64,000 nucleotides of DNA from assembly GCF_002356115.1 (NCBI RefSeq), contig NZ_AP014836.1, forward strand, positions 1,313,001-1,377,000, in the 5' to 3' direction. The DNA comes from Candidatus Nitrosoglobus terrae. GTDB lineage: Bacteria > Pseudomonadota > Gammaproteobacteria > Nitrosococcales > Nitrosococcaceae. Positions 19,758-41,891 of this stretch are shown here, in pieces. The notes beneath the pieces were generated by a model. It was not told the origin of the DNA and searched no databases. It saw only the letters and a program-made list of their open reading frames with translations. The position numbers and the translations under genes were made by a program. Position 1 is the first letter of the stretch; each line of letters opens with the position of its first letter.

Positions 19758-20645
19758 TCATGAATAATTATAATTATTAGAGAGTTTACCGTAATATGAA
19801 GATCCCCATGGTCGCTTTCCTTTATTCATAATCATCCAAACTGATTTAGTTTCATCTAAGTGGGAAACTGCCTCTTTAACAGCAGTCTGTGGTGTACGTC
19901 CAGATTCGACAACTAGCACTACTTGTCCTACGAGATGAGCTAACACGCTAGATTGACTAGTAGCAAGCAAAGGCGAGCTATCGATAATAATAATCCGCTC
20001 TGGATAACGTTTAGCGATATTATTTGCAAGGGCTGCCATCTGGTAGCTAGCAAGCATCTCTGTTGATAAGGGATGGGGGCGCCCTGATCCTACAACACGA
20101 AGATTAGCGATATTGGTACGTACCATCACATCAGCTAAATCCACACTACTCTCCATAAGTACTTCCACCAAACCAGATTTCTCTCGAATGTTAAATATAC
20201 GGCTGAGCTCTGGTTTAATCATATCTGCATCTATTAAAAGCACAGTATGATCGTACTCCATGACTATACTCATGGCTAAATTAATTGCAGTAAAAGTTTT
20301 CCCCTCTCCTGCCAGTGCGCTGGTCACGAGAATTAAATTGTTATGCTCATCGGCTGGGAGACTGCGATCAAGAGCTCTTTTTAAAAGAGGTCTTTTTATC
20401 CTACGATACTCCTCTGCAATTTGGCTCCTAGGATCATCTGGCGTAATAAAGCCTTTTTCGCTAAGTATTTTCAGGTCTAAATCCACAAAAAATCCTGTCT
20501 TTCGACGATTAGATGATACCTGAGCGCTGGCCAACTTGCGATCCACTGCATCCAAGGATAAGGGATTTACCGTAGGGGCAGCTCCTTCGCTACTGCTACT
20601 AGCTGTCCCTATCTGATTCATTGCTTTTTCGATACTATTATTCAT
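19758..20645 (-). CDS. XrtA-associated tyrosine autokinase (TIGR03018-like)
   Basis: 295 residues, a cytoplasmic BY-kinase with no membrane segment. Walker A is SALAGEGKTFTAINLA near residue 110, Walker A' is LLIDADMIKP, and Walker B is IIIDSSPLL. The C-terminus (SSYYGKLSNNYNY) is a short Tyr cluster, the usual autophosphorylation tail. It partners the Wzz-like protein encoded at 21061 to control chain length and export of the exopolysaccharide, as Wzc and CapB do. A 415-bp gap separates the two genes, unusual for this pair. Conserved residues all appear intact. Confidence 0.9.
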   Translation of the reverse strand: MNNSIEKAMNQIGTASSSSEGAAPTVNPLSLDAVDRKLASAQVSSNRRKTGFFVDLDLKILSEKGFITPDDPRSQIAEEYRRIKRPLLKRALDRSLPADEHNNLILVTSALAGEGKTFTAINLAMSIVMEYDHTVLLIDADMIKPELSRIFNIREKSGLVEVLMESSVDLADVMVRTNIANLRVVGSGRPHPLSTEMLASYQMAALANNIAKRYPERIIIIDSSPLLATSQSSVLAHLVGQVVLVVESGRTPQTAVKEAVSHLDETKSVWMIMNKGKRPWGSSYYGKLSNNYNYS

Positions 20646-21060
20646 AAGGTATTCCTTGGTTTTTCTTTTCGTCAGCCTATCTGCAGTAGCTCGGAGGGTT
20701 CATTTTAAGTAGGGTTTATTTTAAAAAGCTTCTTAGGGTTTAAAGATTATTGATAAGAGGGGTAATACTTGCAGTCTTAAATAAATTCTTCTACTGGATC
20801 CTACTCAATTTAGCCCCTCCTCACGCTCTTTGATCTTAATAAAGCACTTTAAGACTCAATTCTAAGCTTAGCATTAAATTATTTTTGAAGCGGCTTTCTT
20901 CAGGAAGGAGTGGATAAAATCTGAGTTTATAAATCTTCATACTTACCTTATTAAAAAATACAAGATAAGCCAGCAAGAAAAACACTAATATTATAGTGCT
21001 TTTTCACTTTGAGCGATTATACGTTATGGTATTGTTATACGCTCTACGGATTAAAAATGG
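20646..21060. other. Intergenic gap inside the exopolysaccharide operon
   Basis: 415 bp between the chain-length gene and the kinase gene. No coding frame, repeat or clear terminator is visible. The kinase may have its own promoter here, but I cannot point to one. Confidence 0.4.
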
Positions 21061-22698
21061 TTAAGAAACCAATTTCTTAACCATACTGAATAATTGAATA
21101 TTAAATAAATAATTTGCTATTAATAATCCATACCCAGCTACAAGAACACCCAACGCAGAAAAGAAATATATTATATCAGCTCGCTTTTTTCGTAGATCAC
21201 CACCTGATATCGCTACTGACACGATTCCTAAAACGGGAACTCCAGTTGTATCTTCTAAGTTTTCACGAGTGTAAAAAACCAGCTTTAACTGAGATAGAAG
21301 AAACGCAAAGGCTGCCCCAGCACCTATAGCGACAAATAAAACTGCTGTTATTAATAATGGCCGTTTTGGACTAGAGGGTATCACTGGCTCAGTAGGAGGA
21401 TCCACGATCCGAAATTTAACATTTTCCGGCGACTCATCTACATTTCCCCCTATCTTTGCTGACTCCCGGCGAGCAAGTAGTTGCTCATAATTTTTTTTAT
21501 AAACCCCATAATCTCGCGTTAAAACAGCTAACTCCACTTCCACCTTAGGGATAGTATCCACAAGTTCCCGCAGATGAGATACGCTCTTATCTAAGGCATC
21601 AATTCGAGCTTTCTGTGTCGCTATCTCGGCATCAGCTTCAGCCAAAGAAACCTGCATTTGCTGATAATAAAAATTACCCGCTAGCGGAGAAAGATTAATC
21701 TCTGGCTGATATTTTTCTGCTTCACCCCCACTAGCATCATTCATTTTATTGTTAGCTGAATTTTTCGATGGAGATTCATCTTTTTTCCTACGTAACATCG
21801 CAATTGTTTCTTTAAGCGCCGTAACATCTGGATGTTTATCTGTATACTTAAGTAATGCCTCATTTAACTGCTCTTGCAGTAATTGAATACGCATATCACC
21901 AGCCCCGGTAATAGAGCCTATAGGATCTTTAATTGAGCCAGCCTCATAAGAAGAGCCAAACCCGATAACTGGTGCCTCCCCACCTAATTGACGCTTAATT
22001 GCTTCCCTACGGCTTTTCGCTATATTAAATTTGGTATGAGCGTCCTCTAGCTTCTCCAGCTCTCCTTGTAATCGCTGATAATAATCTCCTTTTTCACTTG
22101 GCATTAACCCCACATGCTCACGTTTAAAATCCATTAACTCTTTTTCGGAAGAATTAAGTAATTCTTCATATACTTTTATCTGCTGTTCAATAAACTGCCT
22201 AGCATTAGTACTATCGCTTTGGGAAGATCCCAACGTTTTTTCTACAAAGATATTTAATATGGATTGCACTACACGTCGAGCAAGCTGTGATTCAGAAGCT
22301 TCATAAGAAATTTGATATAAATTATCTTTGCTTACTTGCAGCTTGATAGCTTGTTTCAGCTCCTTCAGCAGGATTTCTTTCTCCTTTGGCGTTTTAATCG
22401 ATAAATCCATGTCCGTTTGTTGTATGACTTTGTCTAGGTTAGGCTGACTTAATAAAGTCTGAGTCATAATTGAAAGACGCTGCTCTACATTAGGCTGAAC
22501 TGCTAAACCACTTAGAAGGGGGCGTAATAAAGATTCAGTATCCACATAAACACGGGCTGTAGACTCGTATTTATTAGGCATATGAATTACATATGCCCAA
22601 CCCACGATAGCAATTACCCATGCCCCTAAAATGCCATACCAACGATAATGTTGGATTCCACACCAATAGCCATATATCTGTGACCAAATCTTATCCAT
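21061..22698 (-). CDS. XrtA-system polysaccharide chain-length determinant, Wzz family (TIGR03007-like)
   Basis: 545 residues. A first membrane helix lies near residues 20-38 (ILGAWVIAIVGWAYVI), then a large periplasmic region rich in charged coiled coil (about 140-420). A Pro-rich PSSPKRPLLIT motif precedes the second helix near 445-465, and another helix lies near the C-terminus (about 510-530). This is the Wzz/GumC co-polymerase plan in the longer exosortase form. It sets polymer length and bridges to the outer-membrane exporter, and needs the separate BY-kinase at 19758. The start is ten bases after the exporter gene stop, so the two are co-transcribed. Confidence 0.9.
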   Translation of the reverse strand: MDKIWSQIYGYWCGIQHYRWYGILGAWVIAIVGWAYVIHMPNKYESTARVYVDTESLLRPLLSGLAVQPNVEQRLSIMTQTLLSQPNLDKVIQQTDMDLSIKTPKEKEILLKELKQAIKLQVSKDNLYQISYEASESQLARRVVQSILNIFVEKTLGSSQSDSTNARQFIEQQIKVYEELLNSSEKELMDFKREHVGLMPSEKGDYYQRLQGELEKLEDAHTKFNIAKSRREAIKRQLGGEAPVIGFGSSYEAGSIKDPIGSITGAGDMRIQLLQEQLNEALLKYTDKHPDVTALKETIAMLRRKKDESPSKNSANNKMNDASGGEAEKYQPEINLSPLAGNFYYQQMQVSLAEADAEIATQKARIDALDKSVSHLRELVDTIPKVEVELAVLTRDYGVYKKNYEQLLARRESAKIGGNVDESPENVKFRIVDPPTEPVIPSSPKRPLLITAVLFVAIGAGAAFAFLLSQLKLVFYTRENLEDTTGVPVLGIVSVAISGGDLRKKRADIIYFFSALGVLVAGYGLLIANYLFNIQLFSMVKKLVS

Positions 22699-39556: not shown

Positions 39557-39721
39557 ATGAAAAATTTCACTACTATTATCTGGGATTTAATCTTAGCCAT
39601 TATTGGCGCAACCATTGTGATTGGACTTATTTTCCTTTTTGTAAAATTTTATCTTACTCCAGTGGGTTATTCATGGAAAAATTTCTTTTTCCCTACATCT
39701 ATAATTTGCTTACGTTGTTAA
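39557..39721 (+). CDS. Small membrane protein, 54 residues
   Basis: ATG at 39557 follows AGGAGG by five bases, an optimal ribosome site, and the frame runs to TAA at 39719-39721. The peptide begins MKNFTTIIWDLILAIIGATI, has one continuous hydrophobic helix (about residues 7-32, ending IFLFVKF), a short polar loop and a Cys-x-x-x-Cys end (ICLRC). Length and one-helix shape suit a small membrane-regulatory or stress peptide. I do not recognise a family. The near-perfect ribosome site is the main argument that it is real. Confidence 0.6.
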   Translation: MKNFTTIIWDLILAIIGATIVIGLIFLFVKFYLTPVGYSWKNFFFPTSIICLRC

Positions 39722-39781: not shown

Positions 39782-39848
39782 ATCTTAGCTACCTTCAAAT
39801 GATCACAAAATGAAACCTGCTTTAAAATAGAATTATCAAACCAAGCTA

Positions 39849-39914
39849 GCCAAGGAGCCTAGTGCTTGCCGTTACGTCTGGAACTGGGTGTTACCTACTG
39901 GTAGCGATATTTAA
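39849..39914 (+). pseudogene. Possible relic of an IS605-type OrfB/TnpB N-terminus
   Basis: A 21-codon frame ending in TAA contains ACRYVWNWVL, which resembles the conserved N-terminal segment (CRFVYNWAL type) of TnpB/OrfB proteins of IS200/IS605 elements. Nothing else of the protein is present. The match is short and could be chance, but a strongly folded segment lies right after it. Confidence 0.35.
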
Positions 39915-39938
39915 AAAGAGCATAAAGAGAGTTTGAAT

Positions 39939-40029
39939 AAGGATTGGGTAGCCTTCGCGACCTTTCCTAAAGTAAAGGTCGCCAGCGCTACACGGCAAGG
40001 ATGCCGTTAGCAAAGCATATCCAATCCTT
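39939..40029 (+). ncRNA. Branched structured element, candidate RNA
   Basis: A closed three-way layout on either strand. P1: AAGGATTGG (39939-39947) with CCAATCCTT (40021-40029), 9 bp perfect. P2 begins at the next base: GTAGC (39948-39952) with GCTAC (39987-39991), a 4x4 internal loop, then GCGACCTTT (39957-39965) with AAAGGTCGC (39974-39982), 9 bp perfect. P3 begins at the next base: ACGGCA (39992-39997), loop AGGA, TGCCGT (40002-40007). Twenty-nine Watson-Crick pairs in 91 bases with helices stacked end to end are far above chance. It may be the end of a decayed IS605-type element, a guide-RNA remnant or an unrelated RNA. Strand uncertain. Confidence 0.6.
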
Positions 40030-40210
40030 GCGATTACGACGCATAAGCGGTTAACTCCGAAAATAAATCAGATCAATACTTTCGAATCTAGGCATTCAAA
40101 GTTTTTTATAACCACTCAATTTAGGGAGCAAAAGGCCGCTAAAATAAATTAATAGCTTAATTTATATTTAGGCTAGACTTTGATTATCTACATAAACTCC
40201 TGAGGTCAAT

Positions 40211-40888
40211 ATGGACTGGAATCCAGAACAACACTATAAAAATCAAACTATCGCGGGCGAATATGATAAAAAAAGATTTTCTAGCATTGCAGGGAGGGTT
40301 TTCAATTACCTAGAGAAACGAATAATAACTAAGTGCTTCGGTGAATTACCAAAAGACAAGATCATTGTTGACGTTCCATGTGGTACAGGACGCCTTGCTG
40401 AAATATTGTTGGAGCAAGGATATAAAGTTCATGCAATAGACATCTCTGATGAAATGCTTACCATAGCGCGCCAGCGATTAGCAAAATATAGCGATCATTT
40501 TACAACAGAGGTAGGGGATGCTAAGCAGTTAGATCAGCATCCAGTCCAATACGATGCAGCCTTATGCGCAAGAGTACTTATGCATTTTCCATTAGAGCAG
40601 CAGATTCATTTTTTGCGCGGTGTCAGCAGCTTAAGTAATGGCTTAGTGGTTATCAATCATAGCCTAAATTCAAGATATCAGCGCTTTAGGCGGCTGATTA
40701 AGAAGTTATTAAAACACCAAGCATCAGTGAATTATCCAGTCACAGATGAAGAATTAAATACCCTGCTAAGTAGCGCTGGACTAAAAGAGATAAAGCGCTA
40801 CCGTATGCTTCCCATTATCAGTGAGGCTATCTACGTAGTTGCAAGCAAAGGCGTGATATCCGACGATAACCATCATCATGAAATTTAA
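40211..40888 (+). CDS. Class I SAM-dependent methyltransferase
   Basis: 225 residues. Motif I is IIVDVPCGTGRLAEIL near residue 52, followed by the acidic strand VHAIDISDEML and YDAALCARVLMHFP (motif IV region). The cofactor site is complete. A C-terminal VINHSLNSRYQRFRR and a basic stretch follow. The stop overlaps the start of the next gene (kinase-like) by 11 bp, so the products probably act together. The substrate is not readable; a lipid- or sugar-linked acceptor is possible. GAGG at 40202-40205 precedes the ATG by five bases. Confidence 0.82.
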   Translation: MDWNPEQHYKNQTIAGEYDKKRFSSIAGRVFNYLEKRIITKCFGELPKDKIIVDVPCGTGRLAEILLEQGYKVHAIDISDEMLTIARQRLAKYSDHFTTEVGDAKQLDQHPVQYDAALCARVLMHFPLEQQIHFLRGVSSLSNGLVVINHSLNSRYQRFRRLIKKLLKHQASVNYPVTDEELNTLLSSAGLKEIKRYRMLPIISEAIYVVASKGVISDDNHHHEI

Positions 40889-41891
40889 CGCAACTAATCG
40901 AAAAGCTCTAAATAAGATAACAATTTGTGATTTTATCACTACCTATCAATGTGCTTATTGCAAATCACAGAATAGCTGGCATAGCAACGCTAAAGCTGCA
41001 ATGAGAGATAACTCTGTTATTAATTATTTAATTTGTAGCCACTGCAGAAAAGAAGTCATCATAAAAGTCCCTTTTAAAGAGAAATTGCTAGAATATGATA
41101 TAAGTCAAGGGTTAAATGAGTATTTAATTCAAAGAAAGCTTGAGACTAAATACCCCCAAAGCCATCAGTTTGGAACCATCATTCCATTTGGCTATATGGA
41201 TAAATATGGGGCAATCATTATGGAAAGAATTAGAGGAGATGATCTTAAAACCTATCTCCTGAAATCTAATCACCATCTTCATACAAAAGCCCTTGGCTGT
41301 GCTGGTGCTTGGCTCAGATATCTGCATAACTCATGCCCTCGAGGATATGAAAATCAACATATTGATGTTGAAGCAAGAATTCAATATCTCGACTACACTT
41401 ATGGTAATCCACTTCGCAGAAATAAAACTGCGTATTCTGCGTTCTCTTATCTAAAGAAAGAAAGCGCTAAGATTAAGACAATATCTATTCCGGCAACCTG
41501 GGGTCATGGTGACTATAAGCCCGAAAATATCATTTATGATGGCGTAAAATATATTGGACTGGATATTCAGCTCAAAGACTACAGCGTATTTGTCTATGAT
41601 TTAGCCTCATTCCTAAATCACCTCATCATTATGGGACAGGGTATCAGATACCGTAGGATGAAATCCTGTTACTCTCAGCTAGAGAAGGGCTTTTTAGAGG
41701 GATATGGCAATATCGGTCAAGCTGATAAATATTTGCTTCATTGGATACAACTTTATTTTATGCTGTGCTACTGGGGGCGATATCAGCTTCAGAATCGATT
41801 CTTTGCCGCATACGCTAACGGGTATATCCTACCTACCCTTACAGATTTACAGGCTAAGATTTATAGTGAGCGCATATATGAAGTTGGATAA
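40878..41891 (+). CDS. APH-like kinase with N-terminal zinc-ribbon-like Cys pairs
   Basis: 337 residues. Residues 20-60 hold two Cys pairs, CAYC (25, 28) and CSHC (53, 56), spaced like a zinc ribbon. The rest is an aminoglycoside-phosphotransferase-type kinase: MERIRGDDLKTYL (hinge), HGDYKPENIIYDG near residue 210 with catalytic Asp and Asn, and IGLDIQLKDYSVFVYDLA with the Mg-binding Asp. It would phosphorylate a hydroxyl on a sugar or lipid head group. It overlaps the methyltransferase by 11 bp. The combination with a zinc ribbon is unusual to me. Family call for the kinase is good, for the ribbon moderate. Confidence 0.75.
   Translation: MKFNATNRKALNKITICDFITTYQCAYCKSQNSWHSNAKAAMRDNSVINYLICSHCRKEVIIKVPFKEKLLEYDISQGLNEYLIQRKLETKYPQSHQFGTIIPFGYMDKYGAIIMERIRGDDLKTYLLKSNHHLHTKALGCAGAWLRYLHNSCPRGYENQHIDVEARIQYLDYTYGNPLRRNKTAYSAFSYLKKESAKIKTISIPATWGHGDYKPENIIYDGVKYIGLDIQLKDYSVFVYDLASFLNHLIIMGQGIRYRRMKSCYSQLEKGFLEGYGNIGQADKYLLHWIQLYFMLCYWGRYQLQNRFFAAYANGYILPTLTDLQAKIYSERIYEVG

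Follow-up and report, generated by a model that had tools for sequence, protein, structure and literature searches.

The window analyzed here, a 64-kb stretch of the Candidatus Nitrosoglobus terrae chromosome (bases 1313001-1377000 of a 2.02-Mb genome), contains the remains of a tnpB gene immediately upstream of a strongly folded segment. A profile of family tnpB starts matched positions 39844..39939 on the plus strand (nhmmer, E 4e-17 over 64 kb), corresponding to approximately codons 17-48, and the TnpB protein match of this stretch is interrupted by one in-frame TAA. The original prediction had noted a TnpB-like piece of 21 codons at this place; the piece is real, but longer than that. Across 87 bp, it shares 79% identity with a further relic in this genome, and a homologue in genome G004 possesses OrfB_IS605 and Cas12f1-like_TNB domains. 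Further upstream, 39810..39843 (+; ATGAAACCTGC..., stop at codon 7) may represent the decayed first tnpB codons, given a pairwise alignment with the tnpB start of locus L006 that is weak and lies outside the nhmmer envelope. The remains at 39844-39939 are those of an IS200/IS605-type tnpB element derivative.

Downstream of the structured segment lie a class I methyltransferase gene (40211-40888, +) and, overlapping it, an APH-type phosphotransferase gene (40878-41891, +). Using the flanking methyltransferase for a synteny search for an empty site returned only weak matches in family relatives. Promoter-like sites were no more frequent at the locus than in shuffles, and a terminator reading was dismissed, the sole terminator-like site lying on the minus strand with three G-C pairs. 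On the upstream side, a frame of 54 amino acids (39557-39721, +) is preceded by a good ribosome-binding site (AAGGAGG); its hydrophobic product lacks a Pfam match and is possibly a small membrane protein. Another relic of a tnpB N-terminus (ATGAAGATTTATAAACTCAGATTTTATCC...) maps to 20808-20940 on the minus strand (nhmmer E 1.6e-6, high bias), between the genes 19758-20645 (-) and 21061-22698 (-), exopolysaccharide chain-length protein-like.

Folded as a 91-nt RNA, positions 39939-40029 reached -42.6 kcal/mol as compared to a shuffled mean of -21.4 kcal/mol (z -6.97; 0 of 200 shuffles as good), and were more stable than all 18,260 sampled 91-nt windows from both strands of the 64 kb. The three helices of the original prediction were all located in the sequence, with their arms at exactly the positions proposed. 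P1 (39939-39947/40021-40029, +) comprises nine Watson-Crick pairs, or 13 contiguous pairs when G-U is counted; P2 consists of 5 bp (39948-39952/39987-39991) plus 9 bp (39957-39965/39974-39982); and P3 (39992-39997/40002-40007, 6 bp) follows immediately, abutting P2 at 39991/39992 with no spacer in between. The fold of lowest energy deviates slightly from this arrangement: P1 is extended and GCUA/UAGC pairs form beneath P3, at the expense of the outer 5 bp of P2.

Origin of the helices and the right end

We compared positions 39931-39994 with two sets of sequences, namely omegaRNA 5' strands and tnpB beyond codon 44. Similarity to the omegaRNA 5' strands was not detectable (best score 16, set-level p 0.84), and P2 as such a strand was accordingly rejected. 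Against tnpB beyond codon 44, the best score was 37, a value reached by 0 of 2000 dinucleotide shuffles. Within the entire L011 locus, which holds an intact TnpB in genome G004 and was searched on both strands, the best place for P2 was the collinear one (37 versus 24 for the next best), and the top score for P2 in the rest of the 64 kb was 26. The P2 hairpin (39948..39991, +) is therefore most likely tnpB sequence, approximately codons 60-72, the strong match being to a single gene, L011, while other family tnpBs score 16-24. A profile of tnpB codons 43-110 did not match the region; it comprised two sequences only and is weak evidence either way. A putative internal-deletion junction between tnpB remains and omegaRNA can be placed at approximately 39992..39995 (+), where the tnpB-like match ends and the omegaRNA match starts.

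From this point onward, the sequence is that of an omegaRNA 3' half together with the right end of an element (39995..40060, +). An ungapped alignment of 66 bp links it to the 3' end of L035, another tnpB copy of this genome that has suffered an internal deletion (score 44; the best of 1000 shuffles reached 37). The final 36 bp also aligned to L042, scoring 56 versus 29 in shuffles. A covariance model trained on 12 omegaRNAs, with the window copy left out, returned 39953-40060 as its top match in the 64 kb (16.6 bits, E 0.022), the 3' half being aligned at high posterior confidence; the whole-genome search at E 0.1 did not report the window locus. The model's second match in the window (21668-21739, -; E 0.33) lies within a coding gene and was taken as chance. 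P3 (39992..40007, +) is the counterpart of a conserved omegaRNA hairpin, occupying the same place with the same loop type in family omegaRNAs, where the hairpin covaries; of the three helices, it is the only one that is a conserved omegaRNA helix.

Since AACTCC(A/G)A closes the family's tnpB copies and the flanks beyond it are unrelated, we place the right end at 40060. The window copy shares this end and is likewise followed by an unrelated flank, of which 40061..40076 (+; AAATAAATCAGATCAA), directly after the right end, would be the guide; no second target of this sequence rose above control in the genome. The last 28 bp (40033..40060, +) recur in the genome, with four copies at up to three mismatches, and had no copy at this threshold in five family genomes. 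As the repeat is the right end of the tnpB family, we rejected it as a separate mobile repeat. One right-end-only copy (L031 1501-1528; G000:C1:912600-912627) is found ~110 bp upstream of a gene with a gyrA-like start, and a minimal element of ~130 bp (L034/L041; G000:C1:842595, -) consists of left-end-like and right-end-like sequence with almost nothing between.

The left ends of other copies carry AAGGAG(C/T)(A/G)C. Upstream of the window relic, a left end was not recognizable (score 20 versus 26 in shuffles), and we take the missing left end next to the target motif as decay or loss; for this reason, we refer to the locus as a derivative rather than an intact element, and its mobility is doubtful. 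Equally, the conserved GAAAARCGCAG-type 5' strand, the partner of the 3' end, was not recognizable here. The best model alignment of the window copy retains 8 of 12 core pairs and breaks four, including two at the pseudoknot position; it also uses bases that would belong to tnpB if the deletion occurred as proposed. The window copy thus has the 3' strand and right end of a TnpB omegaRNA by homology, and lacks its pseudoknot and core 5'-3' pairing. Given the broken core pairs and the replacement of the 5' strand by tnpB-like sequence, it is an omegaRNA remnant and not an omegaRNA.

As for P1, its 3' arm (40021..40029, +) falls within the omegaRNA part, and its 5' arm (39939..39947, +) may originate from either tnpB or the omegaRNA 5' end; P1 pairs an arm that is probably derived from tnpB with one derived from the omegaRNA. 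Its probability of arising by chance is small (P ~0.0016 for the nine Watson-Crick pairs, 0.0003 for the 13 with G-U), yet these figures are uncorrected and, as the site was chosen from 64 kb because it looked regular, they do not settle the matter. Counterparts of the P1 arms with different letters were present in loci L074 and L088. A permutation test of P1 conservation across the family was not significant (~0.07 for all copies, 0.11 for the nearer group), and P1 was rejected as a conserved family helix. We infer that P1 and P2 arose by accident, or that template switching within a quasi-palindrome improved their pairing.

The proposal of a single coherent RNA with three conserved helices is hence not supported: the best match of P2 is to the coding region of tnpB, conservation of P1 across the family falls short of significance, and the conserved omegaRNA fold differs. 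Invoking a new small RNA, as the original prediction did among other options, is unnecessary. Its suggestions of an omegaRNA remnant or a palindrome-associated IS200/605 derivative hold for the 3' half, as 39995-40060 shares homology with tnpB elements of this genome and family, namely with their omegaRNA and right end.

A dispersed family of predicted TnpB omegaRNAs

The covariance model identified 22 omegaRNA copies in this genome (E below 1e-5), better preserved than the remnant described above, and between one and seven in each of five family relatives (E below 0.001); 57 other genomes of the order yielded none. When compared with the tnpB list from the protein search, 19 of the 22 copies were without an adjacent tnpB match. 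Similarly, eight copies in two relatives (L059, L063, L067, L070, L072, L075, L077 and L079) had no tnpB within 1.5 kb. A left end was recognizable in about half of this genome's copies, and the elements that have one measure ~155-530 bp.

The consensus fold derived from 30 matches (28 distinct) comprises four short helices between the 5' strand (GAAAARCGCAGYRAGYGA) and the 3' end, forming a scaffold of ~105 nt. In this four-helix consensus, 87.5% of cells were paired and two-sided changes occurred in 39 cells versus 13.3 in shuffles (0 of 500), rising to 70 versus 27.8 upon addition of the P3-type hairpin, with the caveat that 12 of the sequences had served to build the model to which the alignment was fitted, so that the counts lean towards the model. 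Slid versions of the consensus pairing all scored far lower. In the outermost helix, positions -5 to -3 from the end (U-C-C) pair with an upstream G-A strand. The dispersed family therefore features a conserved, covarying scaffold at the tnpB end with a helix at the position of the ISDra2 pseudoknot; by analogy, this helix is the best evidence for regarding the family as predicted TnpB omegaRNAs. Rfam, searched at gathering and permissive thresholds, returned only a tRNA in the window, and no Rfam family matched at the element.

Core pairs were kept in 44 of 44 cases in the tnpB-linked copies of relatives. For nuclease-less copies, the count was 97 of 99 (98%) in relatives versus 123 of 143 (86%) in this genome. 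A protein search of the genome detected in-family tnpB only as broken copies, none of them intact: one lacks ~55 N-terminal residues (L013/L039), one has lost a stretch and carries both a frameshift and an internal stop (L018/L009), one has its N-terminus fused to its C-terminus (L035), and relics make up further matches. Full-length tnpB genes of a different subfamily are present (L026 and L028, 44-45% identical to the query), and a contig scan for close TnpB relatives returned only four distant ones. No Y1 tnpA exceeded the threshold, with one partial match at E 2.7e-4. Judged from these searches, the TnpB/TnpA machinery of the family seems to be gone from this genome, in keeping with the lower core pairing of its copies.

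A probable deleted element and its alternatives

Taken together, the locus is very probably a degenerate, internally deleted, PATE-like derivative of an IS200/IS605-type (tnpB, IS1341-like) element. Its left part would be the decayed first ~70 codons of tnpB and its right part the omegaRNA 3' half (P3 and the 3' strand) plus the right end, a putative deletion having removed the rest of tnpB along with the omegaRNA 5' strand and the left end having become unrecognizable. In an intact element, readthrough RNA from the right end would carry ~16 nt of flanking DNA as the TnpB guide, and TnpB would cut the vacated donor site, such that the element is copied back. Intact members of this family probably work by donor-site cutting of this kind, as in ISDra2. 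The window copy is probably dead, and its guide function lost, because this copy appears to have lost the 5' partner strand of the right end. A deletion is consistent with L035, which exhibits the same kind of core deletion; against it, P1 is better than chance and would not be explained by a random junction. Of the features of a PATE-like element, a putative core deletion, the right end and dispersed sister copies were recognized, and the left end is absent from the window copy. The locus is not a new RNA class; it adds one degenerate member to an established kind of element.

Alternatively, 39935-40060 could be a complete, divergent omegaRNA with a rebuilt 5' part, in which P1 is real and P2 an enlarged variable stem, and which could still serve a TnpB in trans. 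The differing letters of the P1 arm counterparts, the low chance probability of P1 and the 8 of 12 core pairs still formed in the best model alignment all speak for this possibility. We nevertheless deem it quite unlikely, in view of the dissimilarity of 39931-39994 to omegaRNA 5' strands, the four broken core pairs including two at the pseudoknot position, the non-significant permutation test and a genome with no intact cognate TnpB.

Transposon remains might also have been exapted as a small RNA or structured leader that is now under selection, acting, for instance, upstream of the methyltransferase gene as its leader or regulator. Such a role would fit a fold whose stability no other sampled 91-nt stretch of the window attains, and mismatch-free helices next to tnpB sequence that contains stops, but the fold is a single copy with no homologue forming the same three helices, promoter-like sites do not exceed shuffles, the sole terminator-like site is on the other strand, and the downstream gene is weakly matched in relatives; we regard exaptation as very improbable. 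Hardly any weight is left for an independent palindromic repeat unrelated to IS605 (a REP, an attachment site or the end of another insertion sequence). The dispersed 28-bp repeat is specific to this genome at up to three mismatches, as such a repeat could be, but it is the 3' end of a family that follows tnpB and has IS605-type left ends, and the L035 match and the family covariance model already refute this origin. We retain the deleted tnpB element as the best explanation.

For IscB, omegaRNA loci that lack a nuclease gene have been described, and work on TnpB-driven retention has discussed PATE-like elements. Our literature search found no report linking tnpB-less MITEs or PATEs with omegaRNA, which is no proof of absence. 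The RNA of the present family resembles the ISDra2 omegaRNA (reRNA) in lying at the 3' end of tnpB and the right end, with flanking DNA as the would-be guide: in ISDra2, the right-end RNA bound by TnpB terminates in 16 nt of flanking DNA, and TnpB cleaves the vacated donor joint beside the target motif, leading to repair that restores the element (PMC8612924). In the ISDra2 pseudoknot, -5U to -3C pair with -103A to -105G (PMC10097598), akin to the family helix that joins -5 to -3 before the guide to the upstream G-A strand. Unlike the ISDra2 omegaRNA, the family scaffold is ~105 nt long and has no Rfam match at this locus, and unlike ISDra2, the window copy is devoid of the 5' strand, the tnpB gene and the left end.

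According to passages of PMC3119063, the PATEs of Haloquadratum are coding-free IS605-type derivatives that arose by core deletion, have near-terminal palindromes and outnumber intact elements. The elements described here are likewise coding-free IS605-type derivatives, probably formed by core deletion, with near-terminal palindromes and in greater numbers than intact elements; they differ from the PATEs of those passages in that the host is a bacterium and the window copy has no left end. Set beside PATEs as these passages present them, the solo copies keep a covarying omegaRNA. Halobacterium salinarum, an archaeon, has several omegaRNAs per genome that share one conserved structure with a pseudoknot and a right-end hairpin (PMC12558985). 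The present family is similar in having several copies per genome with one conserved structure, and different in its tnpB-less copies, as we found no mention of tnpB-less or non-autonomous copies for H. salinarum in that article.

Implications of the solo omegaRNAs

Starting from the window relic, the analysis led to ~22 omegaRNA scaffolds, most of them nuclease-less, in a 2-Mb genome with an ammonia-monooxygenase gene, which is also present in the two family relatives tested. Well-paired counterparts of the nuclease-less scaffolds exist in related genomes, and the family now has a covariation-supported omegaRNA model. The locus itself is a caution that a deletion junction in dead transposon DNA can yield a very stable fold.

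A bolder and rather unlikely idea is that the nuclease-less omegaRNAs (19 of 22 here) are guide-RNA-only mini-transposons that borrow TnpB in trans. They would still be maintained in relatives, as the 97 of 99 core pairs kept there suggest, and be decaying here after loss of Y1 TnpA and the cognate TnpB, with a few maybe kept as regulatory guide RNAs. Whether short elements keep a guide-RNA scaffold because TnpB acting in trans aids their persistence has thereby become a testable question, and the dispersed family of solo omegaRNAs is the part worth following.
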